Source: Leptotrichia sp. oral taxon 847
Lineage (GTDB): Bacteria > Fusobacteriota > Fusobacteriia > Fusobacteriales > Leptotrichiaceae
Assembly (NCBI RefSeq): GCF_001553645.1
Contig: NZ_CP014231.1
Span: forward strand, 1 to 64,000
DNA length: 64,000 nucleotides
Direction: 5' to 3'
Every line of letters starts with the position of its first letter. Within the stretch, counting starts at the first letter, position 1. The notes beneath the pieces were generated by a model, which was given only the letters and a program-made list of their open reading frames with translations, was not told where the DNA came from and ran no database searches. Positions 1-43,174 of the stretch are shown here, in pieces. The position numbers and the translations under genes were made by a program.

Positions 1-65
1 TATTTTTTTGTTGATATAGAGCATTTAAAAAGGTCATTTTTCTTAAAAATGAAATTTTTTTATAA

Positions 66-215
66 AATATAAAAATAGGAGATATTGTTATCAATATACA
101 ATTTGATGAGAAAACTTTGCCGTGATATTTGAAAAATGATATTAAAGCCTGGGTTAATAGAAATAAAGAAAATAAATTAATTTGGGATTGGAATCCAGAT
201 AGGAGTTGGAATTGA
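66..215 (+). pseudogene. C-terminal fragment of an unidentified gene with an in-frame stop
   Basis: The frame ending with TGA at 213-215 has a protein-like tail (ending NPDRSWN, rich in K, N and W) but is cut by an in-frame TGA at 123-125 and by a TAA at 63-65. Its final TGA overlaps the ATG of the Fic gene as TGATG, the usual form of translational coupling, so a gene probably ran into fic here and has decayed. I do not recognise the family. The fragment is too short to call coding with certainty. Confidence 0.35.
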
Positions 216-1480
216 TGAAAGAAAAAATAAATTTTGAAATTATAGATAAAAAATTAAATAAATATAAAGATGTAAAACTTAATCAGACTTTGCTAAAACA
301 ATTGAGAGAAGATTTGGTGTTAAAATGGACTTATAACAGTAATGCAATTGAAGGAAGTACATTTTCATTGGCTGAAACAAAAGTACTTTTGGAAGACGGA
401 ATAACTGTTGGTGGAAAGTCAATGAAAGAGCATTTGGAAGTTATTGGGCATTCAGAAGCAATTTATTATGTAGAAGATTTGGTAAAAAATAATACAAAAT
501 TATCTGAAAGAGAAATTAAAAATATTCATAGTCTAGTAACAAAAGGAATTGAAAATATAAATTCTGGGCAATATAGAACAGTTCCTGTTTATATAAGTGG
601 AGCAGAACATATTCCACCACAACCATATATGGTAAGACCTGAAATGGAAAAACTGATGTCCTGGTATGAAAAAAATAATGAATTACATCCAATTGAAAAG
701 GCTTCAATTTTACACGGAGAATTTGTAAAAACGCATCCGTTTGTTGACGGAAATGGAAGGACAGCCAGGTTACTTTTAAATTTGGAACTTATGAAAAATG
801 GGTATCCACCGATAATTATTACAAAAGAAGATAGAACTAAGTATTATAGCACTTTAGAAAAAGGATCATTGACTGGAGATTGGAGTGAATTTACAAAATT
901 TGTGAAAGAAAAATGTGAGCAAAGGATCGAATTTATAAATTCATTTAAGGAACAGGAAATTAATCCCCAAAATAAAAATTTACAAAATAAAGAAGAAAAA
1001 CAACAACTTTTATTATCGGTCTCAAAAAACGGAATGCTTTTAAAAAGTCTTTCTGATAAATTTAAAGATGACAAAGAAGTCGTACTGCAAGCAGTAAAAA
1101 ATAATGCCTTTGCTTTAGAATTTGCAAGCGATAGACTGAAAAATGATAAGGAAGTTGTAACAACAGCAGTTAAAAAAAATCCTCTGGTGCTTGTTTACTC
1201 TAACTTGAAAATGGATAAAGAATTTGTGAAAGAGCTATCTAAAGAGCATTCAAAAGTGTTGATGTACGCTGATAAAGAAGTAAAAAAAGAGATTGAAGCA
1301 GAAGAAAAAGATATAGATAGTGATTTAGATGGGCTTACAGATAAGGAAGAAATTTTACTTGGAACAAATGTGTATGTCCGTGATACTGACGGAGATGGCA
1401 AGACTGATAAGGAAGAAAAAATAAAAGGCAAAGATCCAAAAATTTCTGAAAAGGATGATAAAGAACGCTCTTTATTTTAA
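215..1480 (+). CDS. Fic family protein with DUF4116 repeats and calcium-binding-like tail
   Basis: Probably a Fic AMP-transferase (or other nucleotidyl/phosphoryl transferase) modifying a hydroxyl on a target protein. The catalytic motif HPFVDGNGR begins at His174, and an N-terminal inhibitory motif of the (S/T)xxxE(G/N) type, SNAIEG, lies at residues 42-47, so it looks like a class II, self-inhibited Fic enzyme. After the Fic domain (about 20-240) come about three DUF4116-like repeats (about 265-350). The tail has two Asp-rich segments resembling EF-hand or thrombospondin type 3 calcium sites (DSDLDGLTDKEE and DTDGDGKTDKEE). I start at ATG 215, eight to nine bases after AGGAG at 201-205; a longer reading from TTG 206 would have no room for a ribosome site. 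It lies in the mobile-element remnant and shares DUF4116 repeats with the gene at 2271. Confidence 0.85.
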   Translation: MKEKINFEIIDKKLNKYKDVKLNQTLLKQLREDLVLKWTYNSNAIEGSTFSLAETKVLLEDGITVGGKSMKEHLEVIGHSEAIYYVEDLVKNNTKLSEREIKNIHSLVTKGIENINSGQYRTVPVYISGAEHIPPQPYMVRPEMEKLMSWYEKNNELHPIEKASILHGEFVKTHPFVDGNGRTARLLLNLELMKNGYPPIIITKEDRTKYYSTLEKGSLTGDWSEFTKFVKEKCEQRIEFINSFKEQEINPQNKNLQNKEEKQQLLLSVSKNGMLLKSLSDKFKDDKEVVLQAVKNNAFALEFASDRLKNDKEVVTTAVKKNPLVLVYSNLKMDKEFVKELSKEHSKVLMYADKEVKKEIEAEEKDIDSDLDGLTDKEEILLGTNVYVRDTDGDGKTDKEEKIKGKDPKISEKDDKERSLF

Positions 1481-1493
1481 AAAGGATTAAATT

Positions 1494-1868
1494 ATGGATA
1501 ATAAAGAAAAAGAAATCTTGAAAAAAATAGATGAATTTAATAAACAAATTGAAGAGTGTAATAATGAAATTGAGAAAAGTAAAAAGAAAATAATATCTTT
1601 AAAACAAAAATATAGAAATCAATCAAACAAAAGTAGAAGAGAAAGAGCAAGACATCTAATCTTGGTTGGTGCGTTATTAGAAATCGCAGGAATAGATGAA
1701 GAAGATCCTGCAACTTTATTAGGATATTTTCTACAATATAAATATTCATCTGAAATAGATTTAGATAAATACCAGTTTCAGGGTTTTGAAGTTATGAAAA
1801 AACGAAATGAAGAAAAAGAAAAAAAAAGATTGCAAAGGAAATTAATGAAAAATAAGAATTCAAGATAA
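1494..1868 (+). CDS. TraD-like small mobilization-associated protein
   Basis: A 124-residue, highly charged protein. The first 45 residues form a Lys/Glu coiled coil, followed by a segment (RERARHLILVGALLEIAG, then DPATLLGYF) that resembles the small TraD/MobC-associated conjugal transfer family of mobilizable plasmids and integrative elements, where the pattern is an Arg-rich helix, an 'LxxxGALLExAG' helix and a short loop ending in a leucine-rich helix. The gene starts 14 bases after the Fic stop, so it is probably cotranscribed. The role in DNA transfer is inferred from family resemblance and the neighbouring topoisomerase III and transglycosylase. No relaxase is visible in the window. Confidence 0.55.
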   Translation: MDNKEKEILKKIDEFNKQIEECNNEIEKSKKKIISLKQKYRNQSNKSRRERARHLILVGALLEIAGIDEEDPATLLGYFLQYKYSSEIDLDKYQFQGFEVMKKRNEEKEKKRLQRKLMKNKNSR

Positions 1869-1931
1869 AAATCTAATAATTAGCATTAATAGTAGGATAC
1901 AGAAAAAATGTTATAAAAATAAAAATAATAC

Positions 1932-1960
1932 TTGAAAAAAATCAAAAAATTTAGTATAAT
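1932..1960 (+). promoter_or_regulatory. Strong sigma-70-type promoter of the structured RNA
   Basis: TTGAAA at 1932-1937 and TATAAT at 1955-1960 are separated by exactly 17 bases. Transcription would begin near 1967, in front of a stretch with no open frame but with several hairpins. Confidence 0.7.
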
Positions 1961-1966
1961 ATTGTC

Positions 1967-2206
1967 GACAAGTAGGAGTGTTTTACTCTTGGTTCGCACT
2001 ATCCCATTGTTCAATGGATAAAAGTGTTGCTTTTAGCAGTTTTTAGGCAGACCTGACACAGGTGGTTTGTATGAACTCTTTTTTAAAAGGGTTTTTTTGG
2101 TAAGTTTTTACCCGTCAAATATGTGTTAAAACTGCAATATTTGAATAAAAGAAATCCAAATATATATTTTAAGACTAGATTTATTAAAAATCAGTCTTTT
2201 TTTTTG
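1967..2206 (+). ncRNA. Structured RNA of unknown class (about 240 nt)
   Basis: No coding frame occupies this stretch, which sits between a near-consensus promoter and an intrinsic terminator. Visible pairings: GGAGT/ACTCT (1975-1989), ATCC-ATTG/CAAT-GGAT (2001-2019), a long-range pair GCAGTTTT (2036-2043) with AAAACTGC (about 2128-2135) enclosing ACCTG/CAGGT (2051-2063) and GGTAA/TTACC (2099-2112), and ATATTTG/CAAATAT (2138-2163). I could not match it to 6S RNA, tmRNA, SRP RNA, RNase P RNA or a riboswitch class I know. It may be a free small RNA or the leader of the nuclease-like gene at 2271. Confidence 0.5.
2171..2206 (+). terminator. Intrinsic terminator at the end of the structured RNA
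   Basis: AAGACT(A)GATTT and AAATC(A)GTCTT-type arms (2171-2198) form a stem that runs into ten T residues ending at 2206. Confidence 0.75.
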
Positions 2207-2229
2207 TAAATTTTTTAATATTATTATTG

Positions 2230-2254
2230 CAGGCTGAATGCCTGTATTTTTTTT
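2230..2254 (+). terminator. Second terminator or attenuator directly before the DUF4116 nuclease gene
   Basis: CAGGC (2230-2234) and GCCTG (2240-2244) with loop TGAAT are followed by a run of T to 2254. It ends only 17 bases before the ATG at 2271, so transcription of that gene needs read-through. Confidence 0.6.
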
Positions 2255-2270
2255 AGAAAGAGAGGAAAAT

Positions 2271-3527
2271 ATGAGTAAAAATAATGAAAATGAAATTCAA
2301 GAAATTATAAAATGGTGGGGTGCCCATAGTCAAAAAATAATTAATATTGAAAGTAAAAATCATAGTTTTGATTTGAAAATTTTAAAAACTAGGCTACCAC
2401 ATTTATTAGGGCTACATTATATGAAAGAAGAACCTGAAAAGGTGACAGGAATTGAATTGATGAAAGAAATATATAATAAAAATTTAAAAAATAAAGATAT
2501 TTTTAAAAGTATAAAAGAGAATCAAAATGATTTTATATTATTTAAAGTTAAAAATAGAGTTTTTAATTTTAAAAATTTTATGGAAAATTTAGAAAATGCA
2601 GAAATTGTGAAAAATACTTCTCAAAATATGCCTGAAATTAAACATTTTATCATTCTTCCACATAAAAATAATAAATATTTTATGTTGGGAGTAGGAAATA
2701 ACGGAAAGGAAGACTATGTGGGTACATTTATTTTAGACAATGATAGATATTTCAAAGGAAGCAAAATAGAAAAAATAGAAAAAATATATAGATATAAAAA
2801 TTCAAAAAGTAAGGATAAAATAGCATTTTCTTTCGACAATGAAAAATTGGAAAGTGAAAGAAATAAAATTTTAAAAAAAGTTAGACAAGATGGATGGGAA
2901 CTGAAAAAACTAGATATTGGATATTCAAATGACAAAAAAATTGTAACAGAGGCTGTAAAACAGGATGGAATGGTATTATCAATTGTAAATAGTAATTTTC
3001 AAAAAGATAAGGAAACTGTTTTAAATGCAGTTAAAAATAATGGCTTGGCACTAAAATTTGCAAGTAAAGACATTAAAAGTAATAAAGAAACTGTGATGGA
3101 AGCAGTAAAACAAAATTTATCAGCACTACAATATGCAGGTGATAAATTGAAAAATGATAAAGAGTTTATTACTCAAATTATAGAAAAAAATCCAAATGAG
3201 TTTGTTTTACAATATGTTGGAGAAAATTTGAGAAATAATAAAGATATAGCCTTAAATTCTGTTAAAAACAACGGAATGCAACTAGCTTTTGTGAGTGATG
3301 ATTTAAAAAAAGACAGGGAAGTCGTATTGGAAGCGGTAAAAGAAAATGGACTAGCATTAGAGTTTGCTGACGAAAATTTAAAAAAAGATGGACAAATTTT
3401 ATTTGAAGCAGTAATTCAAAATCCTGAAGCAGTTGAATTTTCAAATATTAGGAAAAAAATTTTTAAAGTAGAAAATCAGGAGAATGATAAAGAAATAAAG
3501 AAAAATGAAAAAGATTTTGTTAAATAA
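2271..3527 (+). CDS. PBECR4-like nuclease domain protein with DUF4116 repeats
   Basis: A 418-residue protein. The N-terminal part (about 1-185) contains HLLGLHY followed by a pattern of short basic and aromatic blocks and an isolated YVGTFI strand, which resembles the PBECR4 domain (Barnase/EndoU/Colicin/RelE-like putative nuclease) found in phage and conjugative elements of Gram-positive and related bacteria. The C-terminal half (about 200-400) holds seven to eight DUF4116 repeats of about 24-26 residues, each near 'DKExVxxAVKxNGxALxFAS'. I chose ATG 2271 because GAGAGGAAA lies just upstream; the in-frame ATG at 2238 lies inside a terminator hairpin. It follows a structured RNA and two terminators. 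The nuclease assignment is by pattern only. Confidence 0.6.
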   Translation: MSKNNENEIQEIIKWWGAHSQKIINIESKNHSFDLKILKTRLPHLLGLHYMKEEPEKVTGIELMKEIYNKNLKNKDIFKSIKENQNDFILFKVKNRVFNFKNFMENLENAEIVKNTSQNMPEIKHFIILPHKNNKYFMLGVGNNGKEDYVGTFILDNDRYFKGSKIEKIEKIYRYKNSKSKDKIAFSFDNEKLESERNKILKKVRQDGWELKKLDIGYSNDKKIVTEAVKQDGMVLSIVNSNFQKDKETVLNAVKNNGLALKFASKDIKSNKETVMEAVKQNLSALQYAGDKLKNDKEFITQIIEKNPNEFVLQYVGENLRNNKDIALNSVKNNGMQLAFVSDDLKKDREVVLEAVKENGLALEFADENLKKDGQILFEAVIQNPEAVEFSNIRKKIFKVENQENDKEIKKNEKDFVK

Positions 3528-3572
3528 AATTGAGGAATTAAATAAAAAGATAGCTTGGAAAGGTGTGAGAAA

Positions 3573-4349
3573 ATGAAAAAAATAGTAATTTTATTAATCG
3601 TATTAGAATCTTTAATTATTGTCGGGGAAGGAGTAAAAAAGATTGGATTTGGAGAACAAAATTATAAAAGAGAAATTGGATTTGAAAAGCAAAGAAAAAA
3701 AGAAATTGAAATTCAAAAGGCGGAAGAATTAAAAACACAGCAATTATCTAAAGAAAATCAAGATAAAAATGAATATGTGCAAGAAAATACAAACGTAACA
3801 GATAATCAAATGTTTGAGGATGATACAGCATTTGTTTCTTCATTTCCTAATGGGGTAAGAAAAACTAAAATTGTAAGAAATATTGAAAAACCACAGATAA
3901 AAATGGGGAATTCAAAGTCAAGATTAATTAACTATATACGAACACAAAATAGTAGAATATCTGAAAATGAAATAAAAAGGATATTAAGAGCAGTTTTTGG
4001 ATACAGTAAGCAATATAATATTAATCCATATTTGGTACTTGCTGTGATGAATACAGAAAGTCATTTTAATCATTCGACAGTGTCAAGTGCAGGAGCAAGA
4101 GGACTTATGCAATTGATGTCATTTAACTTTAGAGAATTTGGAGTGGACAATTCTGTTGAAGGAAACATAAAAGGTGGGGTTATGCACTTGAAAAGGGATT
4201 ATAATAAAACAAAAGATGTTGTAAAAACTTTGGTTTGTTATAACGCAGGATGTGGAAGATTATCAAATAATGAATGGACGAGAATAAAAGAAACCCGCGA
4301 ATATATTCCAAAAGTAGTAAAATATTATAATAGAATAAGAAATTTATAA
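3573..4349 (+). CDS. Exported lytic transglycosylase (SLT family)
   Basis: Cleaves the glycan strands of peptidoglycan. An N-terminal hydrophobic segment (residues about 3-16) suggests a signal peptide or anchor; then comes a charged linker. The SLT domain occupies about 130-250, with NTESHFNH (catalytic Glu), SAGARGLMQL and CYNAGCGRL, the three standard SLT motifs. Start ATG 3573 follows AAGGTG; the longer reading from TTG 3555 would place residues ahead of the signal. In conjugative elements such enzymes (VirB1-type) open the wall for the transfer channel, which fits the neighbourhood. Confidence 0.85.
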   Translation: MKKIVILLIVLESLIIVGEGVKKIGFGEQNYKREIGFEKQRKKEIEIQKAEELKTQQLSKENQDKNEYVQENTNVTDNQMFEDDTAFVSSFPNGVRKTKIVRNIEKPQIKMGNSKSRLINYIRTQNSRISENEIKRILRAVFGYSKQYNINPYLVLAVMNTESHFNHSTVSSAGARGLMQLMSFNFREFGVDNSVEGNIKGGVMHLKRDYNKTKDVVKTLVCYNAGCGRLSNNEWTRIKETREYIPKVVKYYNRIRNL

Positions 4350-4351
4350 AA

Positions 4352-4375
4352 TACTTTCCCACACGTGGGAAAGTA
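4352..4375. terminator. Perfect inverted repeat after the transglycosylase gene
   Basis: TACTTTCCCAC (4352-4362) pairs perfectly with GTGGGAAAGTA (4365-4375). There is no good T run on the plus strand, only ATAAATAAAAAAA, so it may terminate minus-strand transcription, stabilise a 3' end or serve as a protein-binding palindrome. Confidence 0.45.
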
Positions 4376-4411
4376 TAAATAAAAAAATGAAAATAAATTT
4401 AGGAGGAATTT

Positions 4412-4966
4412 ATGAAAAAAGAATATATATTAATAATGTTATTGTTGTCATCAGTATCTTATTCAACAGGAAAAATTAGTTTTTCTGAACAAAGAAAAAT
4501 AGAAAGAAGTAAAAATATGGAAAAAGAACAATTAGATGTGACAAATAATCTGGAATTGAATACTAGGATAATTTCAAATAATAAACCAAATAGAGAAAGC
4601 ATAATTAGAGAAAATATTATTAACTTTGCTAAAAGACAATTAGGAAAGCCATATTATTACGGAGCTTCAGGAAATCAAAGATTTGATTGCTCAAGTTTCA
4701 CCCAGTATGTTTATCATAGTGTGGGAATAGATGTACCTAGAGTTGCAGCAGAACAGGCACAATTTAAAACAAAATTAACACAAGGGATAAAAAAGGGGGA
4801 TTTACTGTTTTTTGAAACTTTAGGAAAAGGAAGAATATCGCATGTTGGAATTTATATTGGAAATAGAAAGTTTATACATGCCAGTTCAAAAGCTGGTAAA
4901 GTAACCGTGTCTGAATTTTCTGGATTTTATGCAAATACATTTAAATGGGCAGTATCAGTGTTGTAA
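4412..4966 (+). CDS. Exported NlpC/P60 peptidoglycan endopeptidase
   Basis: Cuts peptide bonds in peptidoglycan stems. A signal peptide (about 1-20) precedes a basic linker, and the NlpC/P60 domain covers about 70-184. Catalytic Cys is in FDCSSF, His in ISHVGIY and the third polar position in FIHASS. ATG 4412 follows AGGAGG. It is clearly homologous to the chromosomal gene at 15395-15940 on the minus strand (shared KKGDL-FFET, GRISHVGIY and FIHASS blocks), suggesting a housekeeping hydrolase was recruited by the mobile element to help cross the wall. Confidence 0.88.
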   Translation: MKKEYILIMLLLSSVSYSTGKISFSEQRKIERSKNMEKEQLDVTNNLELNTRIISNNKPNRESIIRENIINFAKRQLGKPYYYGASGNQRFDCSSFTQYVYHSVGIDVPRVAAEQAQFKTKLTQGIKKGDLLFFETLGKGRISHVGIYIGNRKFIHASSKAGKVTVSEFSGFYANTFKWAVSVL

Positions 4967-5009
4967 TAAATAAAAAAATTTTGAAAAATTAATATTTATT
5001 GGGGGAAAT

Positions 5010-7062
5010 ATGAAAAAATTAATTATAGCGGAAAAACCTAGTTTAGCGATGAATGTAGTAAAAGCGCTGGGGAAATTTAAAAAAAATGATGGATATTTCG
5101 AAAATAATAAATATATTGTGTCTTTTGCATTTGGGCATCTATTTGAAGCAAAAGATGTAAAAGATTATGTTGAAGTTCAGTCGTGGGATGAAATTGAGTT
5201 GCCTTTTGTTCCTAGATTTTCTTTTAAAATAAAAGATGACAGTGGAGTTCAAAAACAATTTAAGATATTAGAAAAATTGATTGAAAGGAATGATGTTGAT
5301 GAAATTGTCAATTGTGGCGATGCAGATAGAGAAGGACAACTTATTATTGATTTAATTATAAAATATACAAAAACCACCAAAAGAATTAAAAGATTGTGGC
5401 TTCCGGAACAGACTGAAGAATCAATTAGATGGGCTATGAATAATTTAGAAGATAACAGAAAATTTAAAAACTTATATAATGAAGGTCTTTCAAGAGTTTG
5501 TGTAGATTGGCTTCTTGGAATTAATTTAACAGTTTTATTGACAGTTAAAGCTGGTAATTTATTTAAGGCAGGAAGAGTATTAATTCCTGTTGTTAAATAT
5601 ATTTACGATAGAGATATGAAAATTAAAAATTTTGTTAAACAAAAATATTACAATTTGGAATCTAACACAAATAATATTAAATTAAGTTTAAACACCAAAT
5701 ATAAAAAAAATGAATTAGAAAACGCATTAGAAAAAGGTAAGGAGTTAAACAATTTTAAAGCAGTTGTAAAAACTATAGAAAATAGACAAATAAAAAAAAA
5801 TCCACCAAAACTGTTTTCATTATCAAAATTACAAAGTAAATTGTCGAAAGAATTTAAAATGAATTTTGATAAATCATTGAAAATTATACAAAATTTATAT
5901 GAAAGAGGTTATTTGACTTACCCAAGAACAAATACGGAATATTTAGCAGTGAATGAAAAAAATAGAGTAAAAGATATTTTGAAAAGTTTGGAAAATGATG
6001 AGCTGGAATTTAAAGATACAGCTATCTTTAATGATTCAAAAATAGAAAGCCATAGTGCAATAACAAACAACTAAAATTCCTAATAATTTATCTGAAGATG
6101 AAGAAATCGTGTATAAAATTGTAAAAAATAGATTTATGGCTAATTTTGCTAAAGAAAATACGATAGTTAACCAAATTAAAATTACAATTTGTGTTGGAAG
6201 TGAGAAGTTTTTATTAAAAGGTGAAAACGTGGAAAAAGCAGGATTTTTAAAATTTGAAAAAATTATATTTAAAAATAAATTACCAAAATTAACTCAAGGA
6301 CAAGAATTCGATGTTAATTTTGAACCAATTGAAAAATTTACAACACCATCTGCAAAAGTAACTGAAGAAACTTTATCAAATTACCTTAAAAATCCTTTTA
6401 ATAAAGAAGAAAAACAAGAATTTGAAGACGATGATCAAGCCTATAAATTAATGCTTGAAGGAATTGAAATTGGAACAGAAGCAACTAGGACAGGAATCGT
6501 TCAAAAGGCAATAAAAATTGGATATATAAGTTTGAAAAAACAGACATTTTCTATTGAACCAAAGGGAATAAGGTTTATTGAATTACTTGATAAATTTAAC
6601 ATTGACTTGTACAAAGAAAAAAATGTTGAATTTTCAAAAATGTTAAAACAAGTTTATAATCAAAAGATGACTTATAAAGAAATGTTGAAAAAAACCGTTG
6701 AAGAGTTAGAAAAAATTGTTGAAGCAAGTAAAATCGTTGAAGTTGAAAATTTTGTTGTACAAAAAGAAGTTATTGGAAAATGCCCAAAGTGTGGTTCAGA
6801 TATTTTTGAAAATAATAAGAGCTATTATTGCAGTAATTACAAAAATGGCTGTAAAATATCACTTTGGAAAGAAAGTGAATATTTTGATCAAAAAATTAAA
6901 ATTAGTAAGGCAAATGCTAAAGAATTGTTTGCTGGAAATAAAATTGTTGTAAAATTGAAAAGTAAACAAGGTAAAGATTATAAAGTTTATTTTACTGGTA
7001 AATTAAATGGAGACTATTTTAACTTAGTGAAAGGGGAGTTTGTGAATAAAAGGAAAAAGTAA
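5010..7062 (+). pseudogene. topB: DNA topoisomerase III, frameshifted
   Basis: A type IA topoisomerase that relaxes or decatenates DNA by a transient 5'-phosphotyrosine link. The first frame (5010-6074) has the TOPRIM domain from MKKLIIAEKPSLA, an acidic GDADREGQ motif, and the catalytic Tyr304 in LTYPRTNTEYL. The second frame (about 6067-7062) completes the core and adds a four-Cys zinc ribbon (CPKCG ... YYCSNYKNGC). The break falls inside the conserved motif H-x-A-I-T-P-T: the text reads SHSAIT then slips by a net two-base loss near 6066, removing the Pro. Mobile-element TopB enzymes are common in integrative elements. A sequencing error is possible, but other decay nearby makes real inactivation plausible. 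Confidence 0.85.
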
Positions 7063-7398
7063 ATACGATTCTTACTAAAATTCAGTCGAAAAAATAAAAA
7101 TTAGAAGAAATTTTAAGTTCAAAACATTGTCTTACGCATGAAAAAATTAGCTTGCAAAGAAAAAAATCATAGTATAAAATCTAAAAAATAAAAAAATTAA
7201 AAATAAATATGGGGGCAAAATGGGGGCAATATAATTTAAAAACGCATATTTTATTAAAAAAACATATGTTTAAAATATCACAAACCTTTAAAAATAACAT
7301 ATGATTAAAGAAAATAACTATAATATCAAAGCGGCTGTGTATTTGCAGCACTAGATCAGGGGATTGATTTAAATGAATATAAATATTAAAAATAAAAA
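7063..7398. other. Non-coding stretch after topB, possible element end
   Basis: No gene is supported here. Two short peptide-like tails are seen: a frame ending around 7235 encoding YGGKMGAI then stop, from a TGGGGGCAAAATGGGGGCAA run, and a frame ending near 7353 encoding KAAVYLQH then stop. Both could be remains of C-terminal ends of recombinase-type genes, which often border integrated elements. I cannot identify an attachment site. Confidence 0.25.
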
Positions 7399-7866: not shown

Positions 7867-8346
7867 GACAGAGTAAAATAGTTAGGGGTAAATAAAAAAT
7901 CTTATTTTAAGTTTTTCATTCAATCCAGAAAGTTACTAAAATAACAATTTTTTTCTATTCCTTTTTTAAGCAGAAGTGCTCATCGCCGCACCCCTGCACC
8001 CCGGCAAGGCTCAAGTCATTTTTATGCACTGCCAAAAAACTCGCTTACGGCGGGGCAGTTTTGTCAGCACATAAAAATGCTCCGACGGTTTAAATTTTAC
8101 TATTATACAAAAGGTGTCGTGATTTTTTTGGAGTAAAGACGACTGTTTGAGCACGTTTAGTGCGAGTTTCGGCTTTGCTTCAAAAAAATGCTTAGACGAG
8201 CGTGGGGATTATAAGGGGAAATGGCGGTCCTTTCCCCTTATGTAAAAAAATAAAAAAATAATATTAAACAAAATAACATCTTGTAATCAAAAATAAGCTA
8301 AAAAATTTGAAATTAAAAAATCTGCCCCTAAAATTTTTAAATCATC
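7867..8346 (+). mobile_element. MITE-like element, copy 1 (full length, 480 bp)
   Basis: Non-coding. The left end begins GACAGAGTAAAATAGTTAGG and the right end, read inward on the other strand, begins GATGATTTAAAAATTTTAGG, giving an imperfect inverted repeat of about 30 bp sharing TAAAA and TTAGGGG. It is flanked by the identical 10-bp direct repeat TTTACATTTT at 7857-7866 and 8347-8356. Inside are three stems: CATTTTTATG/CATAAAAATG (about 8014-8070), TTTTTTGGAGTAAAG/CTTTGCTTCAAAAAA (8126-8186), and AAGGGGAAA/TTTCCCCTT (8213-8240). It is much richer in G+C than the genes around it. Confidence 0.85.
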
Positions 8347-8576: not shown

Positions 8577-10304
8577 ATGATAAAAACGTTATTTTCACAT
8601 ATTGGTGAGTATAAAAAAAGTACTTTGATTTCACCAATTTTTATTGTGATAGAAGTTATTATGGAAATGCTTATACCAACTCTAATGGCTTATATTATAG
8701 ATTATGGGCTAAATAGAGGGGATATGAGTTTTACTTTGAAAGTTGGTGGATGCACGCTGGTTATTGCGTTGATTTCTCTTACAGCTGGAATTTTGGCGGG
8801 GAAATATGCATCTTATGCTTCAGCAGGATTTGCTAAAAATTTAAGACGAGCGATGTTTAGTAAAATACAGCAATATTCGTTTACAAATATTGATAAGTTT
8901 TCCACAGCTGGACTTATCACAAGATTTACAACCGATGTAAATAATATTCAAATGTCGTTTCAACTATTGATAAGAGCGTTTTGTAGAGCTCCAGTTATGC
9001 TTGTTGTAGCAATGTTTATGTCATTTTTAATAAGTCCGAGATTATCCGTTATATTTTTGGTTGCAGTTCTATTTTTAAGTTGTATTTTAGCGTTTATAAT
9101 GTTTGGAGTTCACCCATATTTTTCTCGTGCGATTAGAAAATACGATGATTTAAACATAAATTTGCAAGAAAACATAAGCGGGATTAGAGTTGTAAAATCT
9201 TTTATCAGGGAAAAATATGAAACGAATAAATTTAAAAAAGCTACAAAGGAATTAAAAGAATTAATGCTAAAAGGGGAGCGCATGATAGTATTCATCGCAC
9301 CAGCAATGCAGCTTACCGTATTTTCGTGTATCTTATTGCTATCTTGGTTAGGGGCAAAAATGATAGTTGTGGGAGATTTGACAACAGGACAGCTGACAAG
9401 TCTTTTTGCATATACAACTAATATTTTGATGAGTTTATTAATGATTGCGATGGTTATGGTAAATGTTGTTTTGTCAAGAGAATCAGGAGAGCGAATAGCT
9501 CTTGTATTAAATGAAGAGCCAAGTATAAAAAATCCAAAAAATCCTGTAAAAGAAATTAAAAATGGGGATATTGAATTTAAGAACGTAAATTTTAGTTACA
9601 GTAACAACCCAAAAGTATTAAATTTGGAAAATATTAATTTGAAGATAAATTCTGGACAGACAATAGGAATAATTGGTGGGACAGGAAGCTCAAAATCAGC
9701 ACTTGTTCAGCTTATTCCAAGACTTTATGATGTGATAAGCGGAGAAGTTCTGGTAAGCGAAGAAAATGTTAAAAATTATGATATAAAAATACTTCGTGAT
9801 AATGTGGCGATGGTTTTACAAAAAAATGTCCTGTTTTCTGGAACTATAAAGGAAAATCTTCGATGGGGAAATAAAGATGCAACGGATAGTCAAATTGAGC
9901 ACGTGTGTAAATTGGCACAGGCAGATGAATTTATTCAGAGATTTCCTGATAAATATGATACTTTTATAGAACGTGGCGGAACGAATGTTTCTGGTGGACA
10001 AAGACAAAGGCTTTGTATTGCAAGAGCACTACTTAAAAACCCAAAAATATTAATTCTAGATGATTCTACGAGTGCTGTTGACACAAAAACGGATAAACTC
10101 ATAAGAAATGCATTTAAAAATGAAATTCCACATATTACCAAAATAATTATCGGACAAAGAATTTCATCGATAATTGACTCTGATAAAATTATAGTTATGG
10201 ATGAAGGAAAAATTGTAAACTTTGGAACACACGAAGAATTACTTAAATCAAGTCAAATTTATAGAGAAATTTACGAATCACAGACAGAAGGGGGTGCAAA
10301 ATAA
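8577..10304 (+). CDS. ABC exporter half-transporter, degenerate-site subunit
   Basis: A 575-residue half-transporter with six membrane helices (about 1-310) and a nucleotide-binding domain (about 335-575). Its ATPase motifs are unusual: Walker A reads GGTGSSKS, Walker B ends LILDDSTSAVD with Asp in place of the catalytic Glu, and the switch His is replaced by Gln in IIGQRISSI; the signature NVSGGQRQRL is canonical. It therefore provides the non-hydrolysing half of a heterodimer, as in TM287/288 or BmrCD-type exporters. ATG 8577 follows AAAGGGGA; earlier in-frame starts have no ribosome site. The stop shares a base with the next gene's ATG (TAATG), so the two are coupled. Confidence 0.9.
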   Translation: MIKTLFSHIGEYKKSTLISPIFIVIEVIMEMLIPTLMAYIIDYGLNRGDMSFTLKVGGCTLVIALISLTAGILAGKYASYASAGFAKNLRRAMFSKIQQYSFTNIDKFSTAGLITRFTTDVNNIQMSFQLLIRAFCRAPVMLVVAMFMSFLISPRLSVIFLVAVLFLSCILAFIMFGVHPYFSRAIRKYDDLNINLQENISGIRVVKSFIREKYETNKFKKATKELKELMLKGERMIVFIAPAMQLTVFSCILLLSWLGAKMIVVGDLTTGQLTSLFAYTTNILMSLLMIAMVMVNVVLSRESGERIALVLNEEPSIKNPKNPVKEIKNGDIEFKNVNFSYSNNPKVLNLENINLKINSGQTIGIIGGTGSSKSALVQLIPRLYDVISGEVLVSEENVKNYDIKILRDNVAMVLQKNVLFSGTIKENLRWGNKDATDSQIEHVCKLAQADEFIQRFPDKYDTFIERGGTNVSGGQRQRLCIARALLKNPKILILDDSTSAVDTKTDKLIRNAFKNEIPHITKIIIGQRISSIIDSDKIIVMDEGKIVNFGTHEELLKSSQIYREIYESQTEGGAK

Positions 10305-12348: not shown

Positions 12349-12813
12349 GACAGAGTAAAATATTTAGGGGAAATAAAAACTTCTATTTTAAGTTTCTTAT
12401 TCAATCCAGAAAGTTACTAAAATAATTTTTTCTTTTTTAAGCAGAAGTGCTCATCGCCGCACCCCTGCACCCCAGCAAGGCTCAAGTCATTTTTATGCAC
12501 TGATAAAAAACTCGCACTAATCGTGCTCAAACAGTTTTGTCAGCACATAAAAATGCTCCGACGGTTTAAATTCTACTGTTATACAAAAGGTGTCGTGATT
12601 TTTTTGGAGTAAAGACGACTGTTTGAACGAAGTGAGTTTCGGCTTTACTTCAAAAAAATGCTTAGACGAGCGAGGGGATTATAAGGGGAAATGGCGGTCC
12701 TTTCCCCTTATGTAAAAAATAAAAAATAATATTAAACAAAATAACATTTTGTAATCAAGAATAACTTAAAAAATTTAAAATTAAAAATCTGCCCCTAAAA
12801 TTTTTAAACCATC
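12349..12813 (+). mobile_element. MITE-like element, copy 2 (465 bp)
   Basis: Same ends and order of hairpins as the element at 7867, in the same orientation. It is flanked by the 9-bp direct repeat AAAACCAAA at 12340-12348 and 12814-12822. The loop of the first hairpin differs from copy 1 (CTCGCACTAATCGTGCTC in place of CTCGCTTACGGCGGGG), and the second hairpin's loop is shortened. It ends 18 bases before the promoter of the DUF218 gene. Confidence 0.85.
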
Positions 12814-30403: not shown

Positions 30404-30475
30404 AAAATTTTTAATTGACATTCCTTCTGATTTATGTTAAAATTATTTAATTTATATTAGTAGGAGGTGAAAAAT

Positions 30476-32273
30476 ATAAAAAAATATATAACAATACTAA
30501 TTTTTTCTCTAGCTACTATTAATTTTTCAGCACCTGTTGATGATGCTACTAAAATTTTAGATATTCAGCAAAGACAACAAGAGCAGGAAAGAAGCAGGAT
30601 GGAGCAGCAAAAAAGTCAAGAAGAATTTGAAAATACCAGATTTAATGATGTTCCAAAAATTGATAAAGATAGCAACTTTGATGATAAAAATTCTAAAAAG
30701 TTTTTGATAAATGAAATTGATATTGAAGATAAAGACAAACTACTTTCTAAGAAAGAAAAGAATAATATAATTAAAAAATATGAATATTTGGAAATGGGAA
30801 GCAGCGATATTCAAAATATTCTGGTTGAAATTACTAATAAATTAGTTTCTAAAGGGTATATTACAAGTATTGCGACAGTTTCAGATAAAAATGATTTGAC
30901 CACAGGAACTTTAAACTTAAAAGTTGTCGCAGGGAAGATTGAAGATGTCAGAATTAATTCTGGCAATGGACTTGATAAATATAAGGAATTTTTTATGTTC
31001 CCTAAAAACAGAGGGAAAGTGTTGAATATAAGAGATCTGGATACTGCTACGGATAATTTTAACTCTATCGGCGCTAATAATATGAAGATGGACATTGTTC
31101 CTTCAAGCCGTGAAAACTACTCAAGAATTGAAGTAAAAAACAGATTAAAGAATAAGTATACTGTTGGAATTTTGACTAACAACTATGGGGACGATAAGCA
31201 GAACGGAATTTGGAGAAGAGGTATAAACCTTAATATTGACAGCCCTCTTGGCATTGGGGACAACTTCTATTTCACATATATGACAGTTCCTAAAAAAGAT
31301 CCTGACAGAAGCTGGAAGAAAAACATAGAAGATTTAGCTCCGGGAGAAATTTTACCAATTGGTCCAGTTGGTTATGATCCTTCAAACGGAGATACATTGC
31401 CATATAAAAGACGGCTTGATATGTTTAATTTTGGATATACGATGAAATTTAGAACATATACTTTAAAACTTAGTTCAAATAAAAGTATTCAGGAAAGCAG
31501 TTTCTATTCAGGAAATACAGTTTATGATATGTACTCATCGAGTCGGACTACACAAGCAAATTTGGAAAAAATATTGTTCAGAAATCAAAAGAGCAAAGTA
31601 AGTTTTGAAGCGGGGATAAAACAGAAGCATAATCAGAACTATTTGGAAAAGTCAGTTCTATCAAATAGAAAATTGTCAATAGGGACAGTTGGCTTAAATA
31701 CAACGACATCTCTATTTAGCGGTATTCTGGGAGTAAATTTAGGATATGAAAGAGGACTTAAAATTTTTGGAGCAGAAAGGGATAATGGAAAGCTGGATAT
31801 AAATCCAAAGGCTCAATTTGATAAATATACTCTTGATGTAAGCTACTATAAGCCTATTACGAATAAATTTGTATACAGGGCAAATATTTAACAGCAGTTA
31901 TTCAAATGATGTGCTTTACGGAAGCGAAAGACAGACAATAGGCGGTGTAGGAAGTGTCGGAGGATTCAAGAATGATACGATACAAGGGGATAAAGCAGTT
32001 GAAATTGACAATGAGATTTCATACAATATTCCTATAAAAAAATTTGCAATAATTTCACCATATTTGAGTTATGGATATGGAACGGCAAAATATAACAAGG
32101 ATAATTCAAAATATGCAAGAGGACATGTAACAGGAATTACAACAGGATTAAGGCTTAATACAAAATATCTTGATTTTGATTTTGGATATGCAAAGCCAAT
32201 GGCACATTCAGATTATTTGAATCCTAAAAAGCAAGATATATACTTTAGTGGAAATATGAAAATTAGTTTTTAA
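30476..32273 (+). pseudogene. TpsB/CdiB-like outer membrane exporter, frameshifted
   Basis: Two-partner-secretion transporter that would export the giant protein encoded next. A signal peptide (KKYITILIFSLATINFSA) precedes POTRA-like domains (about 70-215; e.g. GYITSIATVSDKNDLTTGTLNLKVVAG) and a beta-barrel. A one-base insertion near 31890 stops the barrel at 31889-31891; the remaining ~128 residues continue in the frame ending at 32273. In the second part the usual VRG(Y/F) loop-6 motif appears as GSVGGF, lacking Arg. The start is odd: AGGAGG at 30462-30467 is followed eight bases on by ATA (30476), with GTG 30467 buried in the ribosome site. Decay of an exporter is the simplest reading. Confidence 0.85.
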
Positions 32274-32403
32274 ATTAATTAAAAATTTTAATGAAAAAGT
32301 GTTTAAAAATATTATTTATTAAATATTAAAATCAGTTGAGAATTTTTTTAATCTCAAAAAGAATTTAATTGAAGAATTTATTAATATGAAAGGAGAAGAC
32401 AGA

Positions 32404-35400
32404 TTGAAAAGTAAGGTTTTAAGGAAGTCGATTGCATTCTTATTGATGTTGTCAATGAATATGAGCAGCTTTGCAGCAAATCTTGAACTAGATCCTAACT
32501 CAAGATACAATACAAAACTTGACATGTCACGAAATGGAACTCCAATCGTTAATATTTCTACTCCGAATGGTCGTGGAATAAGTATTAATGAGTTTCTTGA
32601 CTACAATGTCGGTCATGAAGGGCAAGTGCTTAATAATGCTGATAACATTGGGCGTAGCCATCTTGCCGGGATTATTAATGCTAATCCGAATTTGGCTGCC
32701 AACCAGGCTGCAAACTTGATAATCCTTCAGGTAAACGGGTCTAACCGTTCAGATATTGAAGGGTATCTGGAAGCTTTGAGCCGTCAGAAGGTAAATGTGA
32801 TTTTGAGTAATGAAAATGGTATTTACTTAAATGGTGCGGGAACCATTAATATTAGAAATTTTGTTCCGACTACAGGAAGAGTAAAGCTTCAGAATGGAGA
32901 CTTCGTAGGAATTGATGTTGAAAAGGGAAGAGTCGTGATAGGCTCAAATGGGTTTGACGCATCGACTACGGATTATGTCAATGTAATTGCAAAAGCTCTT
33001 GAATTGCAGGGAAGTCTTGTCGGAAACAAGGTTGATGTAACTCTTGGAGAAAATACAGTTGATAAAAATGGTGCAGTTACTTCAAAGCACGGAATAAATT
33101 CTGTTGCAATTGACGCAAGTAAACTGGGTTCGATGTATGCAGGGCAGATCAGCATAATCAGTACTGATAAGGGTGCAGGAGTAAACTCAAGGGGAATTGT
33201 TTACTCAAGAGATAAAAAACTTGAAATTACAGCAGATGGGAAAATTAATGTTGCTAAAATTAAAGGGAACGGTATTGAAATTAATGGTACGGAGTACGAT
33301 CAGGCTGAACTTGCCAGTTCTGATAAAGGAATTAATATCAATGCTAAAAATATTAAGCTAAATGGAGAAACACAGGCAGCTGGGGATATTAATTTAAATG
33401 GGAATACTCAAAATAACTCTAAAATATATTCTGAAGGGAATTTTAATACAGGAAGTCTTTTGAATACAGGCGATATTAATGTTGCTGGGAATTTTAAGGC
33501 TGATGATTTTAAAAATGTTTTGGCAGCTGTTAATACAGGTGGAAATTTGAATGTTAAAAACTTGGAAAACAGTGGCAACATTCAAGTTTCTAAAAGCACA
33601 GGGATTGACGGGAAGTTAAATAATTCAGGTAACTTGACTTCTATAGACAAAATAACTGTAAAAAATGATATTTTAAATTCCGGAAATATTTCAACTAATG
33701 GAGATTTGTCAAGTAAAAATGCAGTTTCATCAGGTATAATTGTTGCAAATAATTTTACAACAAGTAATTTGCAGAATGATGGAAAACTCTTTACTAATGC
33801 GGATTTGAAAACAAAATATTTCAAAAATACTGGAGAAATTTCAGCCGTTGGGAAAATATCAAGCGACAGTATGGTTTCAAGTGGAAGCATTAGAACAAAT
33901 GAAGCTCTTGATATTTCAGGTGATTTGGATAATGACGGAACTTTACAGAGTGCTAAAGATATTACGGTTTCAAGTAACATTAAAAATAGCGGTAAAATTT
34001 ATGCTGGCGGAAATTTATCAGGAAAAGATGCTGTTTCAAGCGGGAAAATAGTTTCTAAAAATTTAAGAGTGAATGACCTTAAAAATGATGGAGAAATTTT
34101 TACAAATGAAGATCTTCGGGCTAAAAATGTTACGAATACTGGTAAAATAGCATCTGCTGGAAATATTTCCACAAATGATTTGAAAACTTCAGGAGGCATA
34201 AAATCTAATAAAAAAGTTACAGTTTCAGGGAAGCTTGAAAATGATGGGGATTTGGAAGCTGTAGAAGATATAAAGGTTTCAGGAAATGTAAGAAACACTA
34301 AAGAGATAGCGACAAATGGTGATTTTTCTGGTAAGAATGTGGTTTCAAAAGGAAAAATCATTTCTAAAAATTTTGAATCCCATGATTTAGAAAATGATGG
34401 AAAAATTTTGGCAGATGGAAAAGTAAAAGCTAGAAAAGTTAAGAATGCAGGAGAGATTTCAGCTGCTGAAGATGTATCTACAGATGATTTGAAAACTTCG
34501 GGAAGAATTTCTGCTAAAAACTTGGAATCTGAAGATTTGGATAATGATGGTAAAATTTCTTCAAATGAGAATGTAAAAGCTAGAAATATTAAAAATACTG
34601 GAGAAATTCAGGCTGTAGGATCAATATCAGGAAATAATTTAAAAACTTCAGGAAAAGTTAGGGCAAATAGAAAAATTACAGTTTCAGGAGAACTTGAAAA
34701 TGGTGGGGATTTAGAATCAGGAAAAAGTCTGACTGTTTCAAAAAATATTAAGAATACTGGAAAGATTGCTGTAAATGAGGATATTTCAGGGAAAGATACT
34801 CAAAATTCAGGAACTATGTATTCTAAAAATCTTAAAACTGATAATTTGAAAAATGATGGAAAAGTTGAAGTTGGAAATGATTTGAAGACGGCGGATATTG
34901 AAAATACTAAAGATATTACAGCTGTTGGAAAAATTTCAGGAAAAAATGTCAATAATTCTGGGAAAATTTTGACTAATGGAACATTGAATATTAAAAATGT
35001 TAAAAATATTGGAAAAATTGCCGCAGGAAGTGATGTTACATCGCAAAGGCTTGAAAATTCAGGAGTTCTGGCAACAAATGGGAATATTACGACTTCAGAT
35101 TCAATGATCAACAGCGGAAATATTGAAGGCAAAAATCTTGATATAACTGGTTGGGAATTCACAAATAGCGGTAAAATATCGGCTGACAACATTAGGGCAA
35201 GAGTTAATGACACTAAAAATAATGGAAGTATTTCTTCAGCAAATGACATTGATTTAACGACAAATACTTTAACAAATACAAAAGAAATGCTGGCAGTAAA
35301 CGACATAAATTCAAATAATGCGACAGTTTCAAATTCAGGGAAAATGGCTTCAAATGGTAAAATACTGCTAAATAATTCGAGTATTACAAATATTGGACAG

Positions 35401-38400
35401 ATTTTGTCTGGAGAAATTTCTATGCAAAATGCGAAAAAATTTGATAATACTGGAACTGTAAAAGGGAATAAGACAGTTCTTACAACTGACCAGGATCTAA
35501 ATCTGGTTGGAAATCTGCATGGAGAAAGTTTGCTTGAAATTTCAGGAAACAACATTACAAACAATGGAAATACGACAGGGGCGGGGCTTATTAAAATAAG
35601 TTCTAATGATTTTACAAATAATAAGGAACTGGCTTCAAATGCTGTGATTATTGATGGCCGTGGGAATGTTGTAAACAATAATATGATTACTGGAAATGAT
35701 GGTAAAATTAATGGAAACAGCATTACTAACAATGATTTGATTGCTTTTGACAATTATCTTGAGATGAATGCTAAAAGTAAGGTCTTAAATAATAAAGATA
35801 AAAGTATTTATGGTGGAAATGCTCTGATAATCAAAGGTTCTGAAATTTTGAATGATGAAGGTGAGATTCTTGGTGGAAATATGGACCTGAATGCTTCTAA
35901 AATCACTAATAATGTTGGAACTGTTCAGTCAACTGGGGATATTTTTGTTACTTCAAATGATTTTCAGAATATCGGAAGAGTATCAAATCTTGGAAGCTAT
36001 GAAAAATACTATGAAACTTGGGATGGAATAAGATTGTCTGAATCCGAAGTTGCCAATGAATGGGTATTTAGTGAACCTGATTTTCAACATTCAAGCAGTC
36101 ATAGGTCAAGTGTGAAAAGACATCAAAAAAACTGGCTTGAAGAGATGATAAAAAAACATACTGGAAATTCCAAAATAAACTCATTAATGTTTTCAAAATA
36201 TCCTGATGTTGCACGTTCTAAATTGTATCAGAGAAGCAAGACAACTAAAACAAATACAACAGAAGTACCTGGTAATATGCTGACAGGAAAAATTAAAAGT
36301 AATGCAGATACGGAATATGGTAAAATAATTGCAAGTGGAAATATCATAATTAATTCAGGGAATGTTAAAAATAGGGACAGTTTGATTTCAGGTGGTGGAC
36401 TTGTTGACATAAATGCAACTAATTTTGAAAATTCAGTAACTTTAGGAAATGCTGTTCAGCTAAAAAATGGACAGGAAAAATTGTATCTAACTTATAGACA
36501 TGGAAGCAGAAAAAGTTCTGCAAATGGAACTTACAATAGATATTTAGAAAATGGTGGAATCGGATATGAAAGTGGACAGCCTTCCATCATTGAAGGGGCT
36601 GTAGTAAATGTAAATGCTCCAAATATCATAAAAAATTCCATTGAGGCAGGAAATGGAAAAGTACTGAATAATGGTGGGGCAACTGGTAGAGCCTTGATTT
36701 CTTCAAATTCAATAGGAATTAACAAGGGTACAGGTTCAGCAAATGGAGCGGTTCAGGTTGCTGGAAATGCTTTACTATCCAAAGTAAATAGCGGCTTTAA
36801 TGGAAATTTACAGGTTAATGGCAGCAGCAATAATAGTTTTGACAGGGCAATACAAATTTCAGGGAATAATTCAGTTATTCAAAATATTAAAAAAACTGGA
36901 ACAATTGATGTAAACCCACTATTAAGCAGTGCAATGTTTACGATGAATATGAGTCCATCTTCAAAATATCTTCTAGAAACTCGTTCAAAATACATAAGTT
37001 TAGGTCAATACTATGGAAGCGACTACTTTACTTCAAGAGTTGGGTATTCGGAAATTTGGGACAGAAGTAAAAGATTAGGAGATGCTTTTTATGAAAATCA
37101 ATTGCTAACAAGAGCTTTAAATGAAAAGCTTGGAACAAGTTTTTTAAATGGAAAGTCTAATCAGGAATTGATTCAGTCAATGATGGATAATGCGGCTGAT
37201 GAAAAGGCAAGGCTTGGTCTTGTTGTCGGTCAGGCATTGACTCAGGATCAGATAAATGCCCTGAATGAAGATATTATCTGGTATGTCTCAAAGGAAGTGA
37301 ATGGAGTCAGTGTTTTGACACCGCAAATTTACTTATCGAGCAGAACTAGGGAAAGCATAAGCGATGACACTAGAAATAGAATTGGTGGAATAAATGGAAC
37401 TTATGTCAAGACTAAAGATTTTGTAAATGACGGGACAAAATGGGGTAACGGCGGAGTTACCTATGTTGAGGCAAATACTGTGAGAAATGAGACTACAACA
37501 AATCTTCTTTCTGAAATTTCAGGAGATAGAACTTTCATAAGTTCAGTTGGAAATATTGAAAATATCGGCGGAAAGATAAAGGGAAATGAAGTTGTAGGTT
37601 TAATTTCTGAAAATGGAAATGTAATCAACAATACAACCAAAAAAAAAGTAGGATTCAATAATGGCGAGTTTGACAGAAGCTGGCATGAAGAAATAGGTTC
37701 AATTGGGCAAATTTCTTCAAATGGCTTAACTTTTATTAAGGGTAACAGCTATGAATCAACAGGAGGAATTCTAAACACAAATCATCTTGAACTTGATGTA
37801 AATAAATTCAATGTATCGGCATTGTCTTTAAGCGGTGAAGATAAATTTGGTAAAGGCAGCAATAATTACACAAAATATGGCGCAACAGAACATTTAGGCG
37901 GAGAAGTAACTGCAAATTCTACTTCAGGAAGAATAGGAAATTTGAACCTTGCAGGCTCAGCATTTATTGGCGGAGATACACAAGGTCTGAAAATTGGGAA
38001 AGTGAATGTGGAATCCGCTGTAAACAGTTACGACTTGGAGTCAAAACAGACAAGTAAGAATATGGTTTCTAAAAGCAGTACATACATAAAATCTCATCAG
38101 GAAGAAAATGTCGCAGGAAATCTACAGCTTAGCGGAGCAAGAATCGAAGGAAACTTGACAGGAATTGGAAGTAACATTGATTTAGGTGAAAATACCTTTG
38201 TTGGTGGGAAATTGACAACAGATTCGAGAGAGCTGCACAACAGTTTTTATGAAAAAAATACATCCAGAGGATTTAGTGCAGGAATTAGTCACGGAACAGC
38301 TTCATTAAATTATGGAAAATCAAGCAGTACCTATGATGAAAAAGATACGATAAATGCCAAATCAAATTTAAGAATTGGCGATGGAAGTGTGCTAAATAAC

Positions 38401-42063: not shown

Positions 42064-42079
42064 GGGAAAGGAAGATAAG

Positions 42080-43174
42080 ATGAATAAAAGATATATGGAT
42101 ATACTAAAAGAATATCTAAAAAAAAACGAAAGAAAGGCAATAGGATACAGTGAAGAAGAAATAACTAAAATTGAAAAGCTATATGATATAGAAGCAAAAG
42201 GAGATTTCAGGGAGTTCTTAAAATATGCCGGAAGATGTGATGGAGATTTACTGGGAGATGATCCTATTATTTTATATAGACAAACTTGGAACATAGATTC
42301 CTATTTAAGGATGAACTATTTTGGATTTATAGATGATGAAGATTTTGAAGAAAAAGTATTTTATGATGAACTGAAAAAAAAGCCATTCATATTTTCAATA
42401 GAAATGGAAAACTATTATTTTTATATAAGGACAGCAGATGATGATTTAAAGGTATACTGTTTTGATGAGAATGAAGAAAAGATAAAGGATACTGGAATGG
42501 ATTTTAATGAATACATGGTTGATTTAGTAGAAAGATACACTCCTGAATTAAAACCTACACTAGATTTTTCGACTGTAGGAGAACTTTTGGTACAGTGTGA
42601 TACATCTGAAAAAAGAATTACAGGATTAAGGGAAATAAGGGAATATATATCTTCAGAAAGAAAAGAAAACAAAGAGCTTTTTATCCTTCTTGAAAGATAT
42701 CTTGAAAAGAACAGGAAGGAATTTACAGGATACAATGATGATGAGATAAGAGGAATAGAAGAATTATATGATATAGAAGTGAAGGGAGATTTCGGGGAAT
42801 TTTTAAGTATAGCAGGAAAAAGTTTGGGAGGATTATTAGGAGAAGAAGAACTGTCATTATATAATGACTGGAGTATAAGAGAAAGAATAGTGTTACAATA
42901 TGATTTTCAGGAATATGTACAAAAAGATAAATTTCGTGGAAAAGGAAGAGATGGTAAACCTTTTATAATTGACTTAAAAAGTAATTCTGAATACATTTTT
43001 ATAACTACAAGGGATAATGATTTAAAAGTATATCATTACAGCAGAGAGAACAGGACTTTAAAGGAAACAGGAATGAATTTCAGTGAATATGTTGCAGATT
43101 TAATTAAAAGATATAATCCGGAACTTGAAGAGTTAAAAGATGTTTCAGTATCTGGAGATATTATAAACATATAA
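42080..43174 (+). CDS. Tandem SUKH (SMI1/KNR4)-like immunity protein
   Basis: A 364-residue cytosolic protein made of two copies of one domain: residues about 1-160 and 190-355. Both copies carry YLxKNxxxxxGYxxxEI, IEKLYDIEAKGDFREFL / IEELYDIEVKGDFGEFL, DDLKVYCF / NDLKVYHY, and TGM-(D/N)-F-(N/S)-EY. The LYDIE...DFREFLKYAG block resembles the SUKH superfamily of immunity proteins, many of which guard against nuclease or deaminase toxins. It starts 16 bases after tpsA behind AAAGGAAG, in the position of a CdiI gene. The duplication may be a fusion of two ancestral immunity genes. Confidence 0.8.
   Translation: MNKRYMDILKEYLKKNERKAIGYSEEEITKIEKLYDIEAKGDFREFLKYAGRCDGDLLGDDPIILYRQTWNIDSYLRMNYFGFIDDEDFEEKVFYDELKKKPFIFSIEMENYYFYIRTADDDLKVYCFDENEEKIKDTGMDFNEYMVDLVERYTPELKPTLDFSTVGELLVQCDTSEKRITGLREIREYISSERKENKELFILLERYLEKNRKEFTGYNDDEIRGIEELYDIEVKGDFGEFLSIAGKSLGGLLGEEELSLYNDWSIRERIVLQYDFQEYVQKDKFRGKGRDGKPFIIDLKSNSEYIFITTRDNDLKVYHYSRENRTLKETGMNFSEYVADLIKRYNPELEELKDVSVSGDIINI

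Follow-up and report, generated by a model that had tools for sequence, protein, structure and literature searches.

A putative type III-like toxin–antitoxin module with a PBECR4-DUF4116 protein on an integrative and conjugative element of Leptotrichia

Type III toxin–antitoxin systems are ordered as promoter, RNA, terminator and toxin gene, and their RNA is pseudoknotted (PMC5086642). In the AbiF-RCd22 pair, a single RNA works both in cis, through termination, and in trans, on the protein (PMC12373285); the paper on the antitoxin AvcI mentions no repeats (PMC10511110). PBECR domains, whose predicted active site is described as a conserved helix histidine and a C-terminal Ser/Thr, have been proposed to act as RNases in effectors of phages and conjugative elements (PMC5512222). 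Here we analysed a locus in Leptotrichia sp. oral taxon 847 in which a promoter, a folded RNA, terminator 1, terminator 2, a ribosome binding site and a PBECR4-DUF4116 gene follow one another inside an integrative and conjugative element (ICE). It lies in the first 64 kb of the complete 2.19-Mb contig NZ_CP014231.1; this whole 64,000-nucleotide stretch is called the window. From its architecture and from its relatives, we consider the locus to be probably a type III-like toxin–antitoxin module, formed by a PBECR4 RNase and an RNA antitoxin and carried by the ICE. Coordinates are collected in Table 1.

The evidence for this reading is mainly comparative. An intrinsic terminator was found within −160 to +20 of the start in 27 of 33 PBECR4 genes, compared with 21 of 279 other open reading frames (ORFs) of the same loci; some of the six PBECR4 genes without a scanned terminator show long-loop terminators by eye. 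Among free-standing PBECR4 genes, a promoter, an RNA and a terminator precede nearly all of those examined in Fusobacteriota and many of those in Bacilli, and the same order and strand were observed in dozens of relatives from two phyla. The RNA before PBECR4 is of other kinds in other fusobacteria and Bacilli, among them tandem arrays that carry the motif GUUGGCNNNCAACNGAAAAA. Tandem repeats are frequent in this position in Bacilli, other fusobacteria and phages; two arrays measured 54 nt × 4.3 and 54 nt × 2.3. The initial annotation of the stretch had asked whether the RNA–gene pair is conserved: the RNA is not missing from the gene's homologs, several of which have tandem repeats typical of type III systems. 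The recurrence of this pairing in two or more phyla suggests a family of RNA-antitoxin/protein-toxin systems that has not yet been described.

The association also holds in reverse. A single-unit repeat pattern matched 31 loci in viral contigs; all three loci with two units were confirmed to precede PBECR4, as does locus L164. Protein searches of viral_contigs with A3, A5, A6 or the window protein returned no PBECR4 relatives; it was the RNA repeat pattern that found them. Among 395 Bacilli genomes, the two-unit pattern occurred in two places, both immediately upstream of PBECR4. The Rfam drum RNA (RF02958) gave two matches over the cut-off in the same genomes (L192 and L191; G149 and G311), both just before PBECR4, and its two matches below the cut-off lay inside unrelated coding genes. 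The drum RNA family is likely to be a partner of PBECR4 genes.

In Leptotrichiaceae, two Fusobacterium plasmids (NZ_CP013332, with two copies, and CP053469) and one Erysipelotrichaceae metagenome-assembled genome, PBECR4 genes are preceded by a conserved, single-copy, pseudoknotted RNA of ~180 nt located between promoter and terminator, which we designated class A. Its terminator reads AAAGACUAGA...UCUAGUCUUUU, and the start codon follows some 20–30 nt on. A structure of seven helices and a pseudoknot (38 pairs) was proposed by eye on eight sequences and then counted: 93.6% of cells were paired, compared with 29–48% when the structure was slid, and two-sided changes occurred in 18 pairs, compared with 8.7 in shuffles. 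In the pseudoknot, the P1 loop pairs with the bases just before P2, and this helix (helix 3) covaries in four of its five pairs (GCGAG/CUCGU, GUGAG/CUCAC, AUGGG/CCCAU, ACAAG/CUUGU). A covariance model made from the eight sequences recovered 14 more copies. In the resulting 22-copy alignment, which was fitted to the model, 31 of 33 pairs showed two-sided changes, with a covariation of 0.645 compared with 0.205 in shuffled alignments. Full-length matches in Fusobacteriota (E < 1e-8) lay before PBECR4 genes, before PBECR4 remnants or at a site interrupted by an insertion sequence (L127), and one had no gene (L128). Weak matches of model R1 (E > 1e-6) were treated as chance, and the ones looked at fell within or next to ordinary genes. 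RNA–PBECR4 modules were also seen in a row, with four RNA copies in L066 (8460–11205) and three in L099 (1336–2914).

We regard the window RNA as probably a divergent class A RNA; a covariance model supports this assignment without proving it. The folded RNA of about 240 nt that had been annotated here barely beats shuffles by its own folding energy (z −1.92); support for its structure comes chiefly from the relatives. Read directly, the P1 loop GCACU (1996–2000) can pair with AGUGU (2023–2027), giving a possible 5-bp pseudoknot in the class A position. The P3 helix is compensatory with respect to the relatives' GCAUA/UAUGC and GCUUG/CAAGC (class A helix 6). The anatomy P2-G[A/G]CC-P3 is present in the window RNA, in 0 of 5000 shuffles and, in 2.09 Mb, almost exclusively in class A RNAs, with about one unrelated match; this rule was formulated only once the match was known, and only 8 of the 22 class A copies strictly follow it. 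Because MAFFT misaligned the window RNA with class A, the class A models R1 and R2 were both built without it. When the terminator was included, the score of the class A sequence profile was equalled by only 2 of 1000 shuffles.

We looked for tandem repeats in the window RNA and found none, as first noted. Rfam matched no family to it, drum included, and a housekeeping RNA was rejected on this ground. Searching plasmids and phages for DNA similar to the RNA was uninformative, and the matches of a DNA family search were limited to promoter and terminator pieces. The stretch GACACAGGTGGT, which looked like a 23S rRNA fragment, was set aside as such because it corresponds to the P3 region of the relatives. 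Leader-peptide attenuation was also rejected, as the 10-codon ORF MNSFLKGFFW (2071–2103) was not seen by eye in the relatives' RNAs. This ORF has a good ribosome binding site (AGGTGG).

The near-consensus promoter and the tandem terminators of the initial annotation were both recovered. Promoter-like matches are no commoner in the region than in shuffles (14 versus 17.9), and the window promoter counts only because the relatives carry one at the corresponding position. Terminator 1, composed of AAGACU...AGUCUU and a U-run, matches the terminator of the relatives. The likely start codon is the ATG at 2271, behind the ribosome binding site; the ATG at 2238 sits in the loop of terminator 2.

Scanned alone, the N-terminus of the protein matched Pfam PF18813 (PBECR4) with 48.2 bits against a cut-off of 27 (E 2.2e-12), in agreement with the resemblance noticed earlier; the match disappears when the DUF4116 repeats, of which there are five to six, are included in the query. 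H44, T116 and S187 are invariant in the alignment, that is, the predicted catalytic helix histidine and C-terminal Ser/Thr are kept. By family membership, PBECR4 is predicted to be a metal-independent endoribonuclease. AlphaFold modelled the domain with confidence; its model of a PBECR4 of the repeat class was poor (pLDDT 42). A BFVD fold search gave one unnamed match (E 1.3e-4). In searches of Pfam and NCBIfam, no ToxN/AbiQ, CptN or TenpN family matched at E ≤ 1, and the literature searched did not mention PBECR4 by name.

Several results weigh against a type III-like module with a class A RNA. The most conserved class A loop, GGGGUCAGAAAUA, is absent from the window RNA. Under model R1 the RNA scored 7.7 bits, and a reverse-strand match scored higher; under R2 it was the best match in 8 kb, with an E of only 0.0097. 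The class A sequence profile without the terminator gave no signal in the window, 347 of 1000 shuffles being as good. The annotation had suggested a comparison with PBECR4 and ToxN folds. A confident domain model was obtained; a structural relative was not, since Foldseek found nothing in the PDB at E ≤ 0.001, neither a solved type III toxin nor ToxN/AbiQ. In at least one case, L071, the PBECR4 gene (9410–10093) has a terminator, and the place of the RNA is taken by a protein-coding ORF. Large polyvalent PBECR4 fusions have neither RNA nor terminator. Taken together with the pairing described above, the type III-like interpretation first offered for this locus is supported as far as gene architecture and genome comparison go.

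In such a module, one promoter would transcribe the folded, pseudoknotted RNA. Most transcripts would end at the two terminators, leaving the RNA in excess, and a minority would read through into PBECR4-DUF4116. The RNA unit would bind and block the nuclease directly, as type III precedents and the covariation with a pseudoknot suggest. Upon loss of the element, or when a phage shuts off host transcription, the short-lived RNA would be gone and the nuclease would cut cellular RNA; this may stabilise the ICE, abort phage infection, or both. We infer the toxicity of PBECR4 and its neutralisation by the RNA. The DUF4116 repeats would be an extra part of this copy. The ICE setting, with its type IV secretion system (T4SS), relaxase, integrase and YoeB-RelB pair, was counted in favour of this reading.

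The RNA could instead be a cis-acting attenuator, a 5′ leader that responds to a signal by adjusting read-through into PBECR4 and the conjugation genes without ever acting on the protein. The terminators just before the ribosome binding site, the single RNA copy and the common direction of the downstream genes all agree with this. We nevertheless regard it as unlikely: relatives carry tandem repeat arrays, the RNA accompanies PBECR4 whatever genes come next, paralogous RNA–PBECR4 modules stand in tandem, and L128 holds an RNA copy without any gene. Cis and trans action are, moreover, compatible, as in AbiF-RCd22 (PMC12373285).

It is less probable that PBECR4-DUF4116 is a counter-defence effector of the polyvalent type that enters the recipient together with the ICE DNA and is silenced in the donor by the RNA. 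PBECR domains have been described in effectors of phages and T4SS elements (PMC5512222), and all three DUF4116 proteins found are on this ICE, one with Fic and one with PBECR4; however, the protein has no translocation signal, and free-standing PBECR4 without DUF4116 shows the same RNA arrangement. That a separate small RNA gene, with a terminator of its own, lies by coincidence beside an unrelated ICE gene is highly improbable: the window RNA has a single short DNA match, and no other, in 97 other fusobacterial genomes, but such a coincidence is already contradicted by the comparative data, namely the shared order and strand in dozens of relatives of two phyla, the terminator counts, and the reverse association of the two-repeat pattern and drum RNA with PBECR4.

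A broader version of the toxin–antitoxin reading is a speculative proposal that we hold to be improbable as a whole: PBECR4 would be the toxin of a widespread, unrecognised type III-like superfamily whose RNAs range from single-copy pseudoknots to 54-nt arrays and include drum, and here fusion to the DUF4116 repeats, which a Fic protein also carries, would turn an addiction module into an RNA-silenced effector deliverable by the T4SS. If the type III-like reading is true, PBECR4, so far only a predicted nuclease, would join the RNA-neutralised toxin families, the drum family would gain a likely role, and related toxins whose RNAs are single-copy in some and repeated in others would offer a natural series that makes the question of why type III antitoxins repeat a testable one.

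The ICE spans the contig end, and its tyrosine integrase, relaxase and VirB/VirD4-type secretion system lie in the final ~35 kb of the contig. A 22-bp direct repeat, ATTGATTTAAATGAATATAAAT, occurs in the window and at G000:C1:2160774 (L063 5839–5860), the latter copy at the 3′ end of a QueH-like gene; it is probably the attachment site. Its two copies suggest limits about 41.5 kb apart. Downstream of the PBECR4-DUF4116 gene, same-strand conjugation genes encode a lytic transglycosylase, an NlpC/P60 protein and a topoisomerase. The topoisomerase gene is broken by a frame change between ORFs 5010–6074 and 6109–7062. The type II toxin–antitoxin pair RelB-YoeB lies on the same ICE (L064 18610–19145). 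The three DUF4116 proteins found in the genome are fused to Fic, PBECR4 and an unknown region, respectively, and DUF4116 may be a shared, element-specific module. On an F. nucleatum plasmid, a DUF4116-RadC fusion adjoins a PBECR4 module.

Table 1. Features of the locus and its ICE (window positions unless a locus is named)
Feature	Position	Strand	Basis
Right part of the ICE, carrying the module	1..7384	+	22-bp direct repeat at 7363-7384
ICE DUF4116 proteins	window 233-1480; window 2271-3527; L064 17696-18511		
Sigma-70 type promoter, TTGAAA-17-TATAAT	1932..1960	+	11/12 consensus positions; relatives' promoter in the same place
Proposed antitoxin RNA, single copy, ending in terminator 1	1967..2205	+	fold versus shuffles; class A relatives
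P1-like hairpin, GGUU-CGCACU-AUCC	1991..2004	+	read directly
Hairpin CCAUUGUUCAAUGG	2004..2017	+	occupies the place of the class A hairpin with loop GGGGUCAGAAAUA
P2: UGCUU (2028-2032) with AGGCA (2045-2049), then GACC (2050-2053)	2028..2053	+	P2-P3 anatomy rule
P3: ACACA (2056-2060, then GG) with UGUGU (2122-2126, then UAAAA)	2056..2126	+	P2-P3 anatomy rule
Terminator 1, AAGACUAGAUUUAUUAAAAAUCAGUCUUUUUUUUU	2171..2205	+	read directly; resembles class A terminator AAAGACUAGAUUUAUUCUAGUCUUUU
Terminator 2, UGCAGGCUGAAUGCCUGUAUUUUUUUU	2228..2254	+	terminator scan
Ribosome binding site, AGAGAGG	2259..2265	+	read directly
Proposed toxin gene, PBECR4-DUF4116 fusion, 418 aa	2271..3527	+	ORF list, Pfam
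PBECR4 predicted RNase domain, residues 9-187	2295..2831	+	Pfam; conserved H44, T116, S187; AlphaFold pLDDT 88
DUF4116 repeats, approximate limits	2891..3455	+	domain scan

Elsewhere in the window, an intergenic repeat of ~290 bp occurs at 7960–8250, 12432–12719, about 43850–44040 and 61806–62094. Its GC content is above that of its surroundings, it has no long ORF and no Rfam match, and at least 40 copies with 90–99% identity are present in the genome. By eye, a two-partner secretion pair lies at 30467–43174, including a 3225-aa haemagglutinin-like protein with a C-terminal deaminase-like HAE...CPNC motif, and an SMI1/SUKH-like gene was seen 3′ of the latter; the locus is a probable contact-dependent inhibition toxin with its immunity gene.

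Compared with described systems, the best reading is a new type III-like family, distinct from ToxIN, CptIN and TenpIN by the tests made, of which this locus is a DUF4116-fused variant with a single-copy RNA. ToxIN/AbiQ shares with it the promoter, RNA antitoxin, Rho-independent terminator and predicted endoribonuclease toxin, and its pseudoknotted RNA (PMC5086642) is paralleled by the covarying pseudoknot of class A. However, the toxin here is PBECR4, with no ToxN-family match in sequence or fold, and the RNA is one unit of ~240 nt, whereas ToxIN/AbiQ has repeats of 34–36 nt. CptIN and TenpIN show the same gene order, and their RNA repeats of ~45–50 nt are near the 54-nt repeats found before some PBECR4 genes (PMC12373285), but the toxin does not match their families and the window RNA has no repeats. 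AbiF-RCd22 of C. difficile is likewise ordered as promoter, non-coding RNA, terminator and toxin gene, which are co-transcribed there (PMC12373285); its toxin is instead Abi_2/AbiD/F, related to Cas13 ancestors, and its RNA has two abiF motifs. AvcID also has a structured type III RNA antitoxin, with a minimal unit of ~171 nt (PMC10511110), which indicates that type III antitoxins are not necessarily short repeat arrays; its toxin, however, is a cytidine deaminase, and no terminator is predicted between its RNA and toxin. Drum RNA sits, like the window RNA, just upstream of PBECR4, in Bacilli, but the window and class A RNAs fail the drum model. Finally, the PBECR predicted RNases of polyvalent proteins (Iyer et al. 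2017) belong to the same domain family and occur in phages and T4SS elements; the excerpted parts of that work describe no RNA partner (PMC5512222), whereas in the present locus the domain follows an RNA and carries a DUF4116 fusion.
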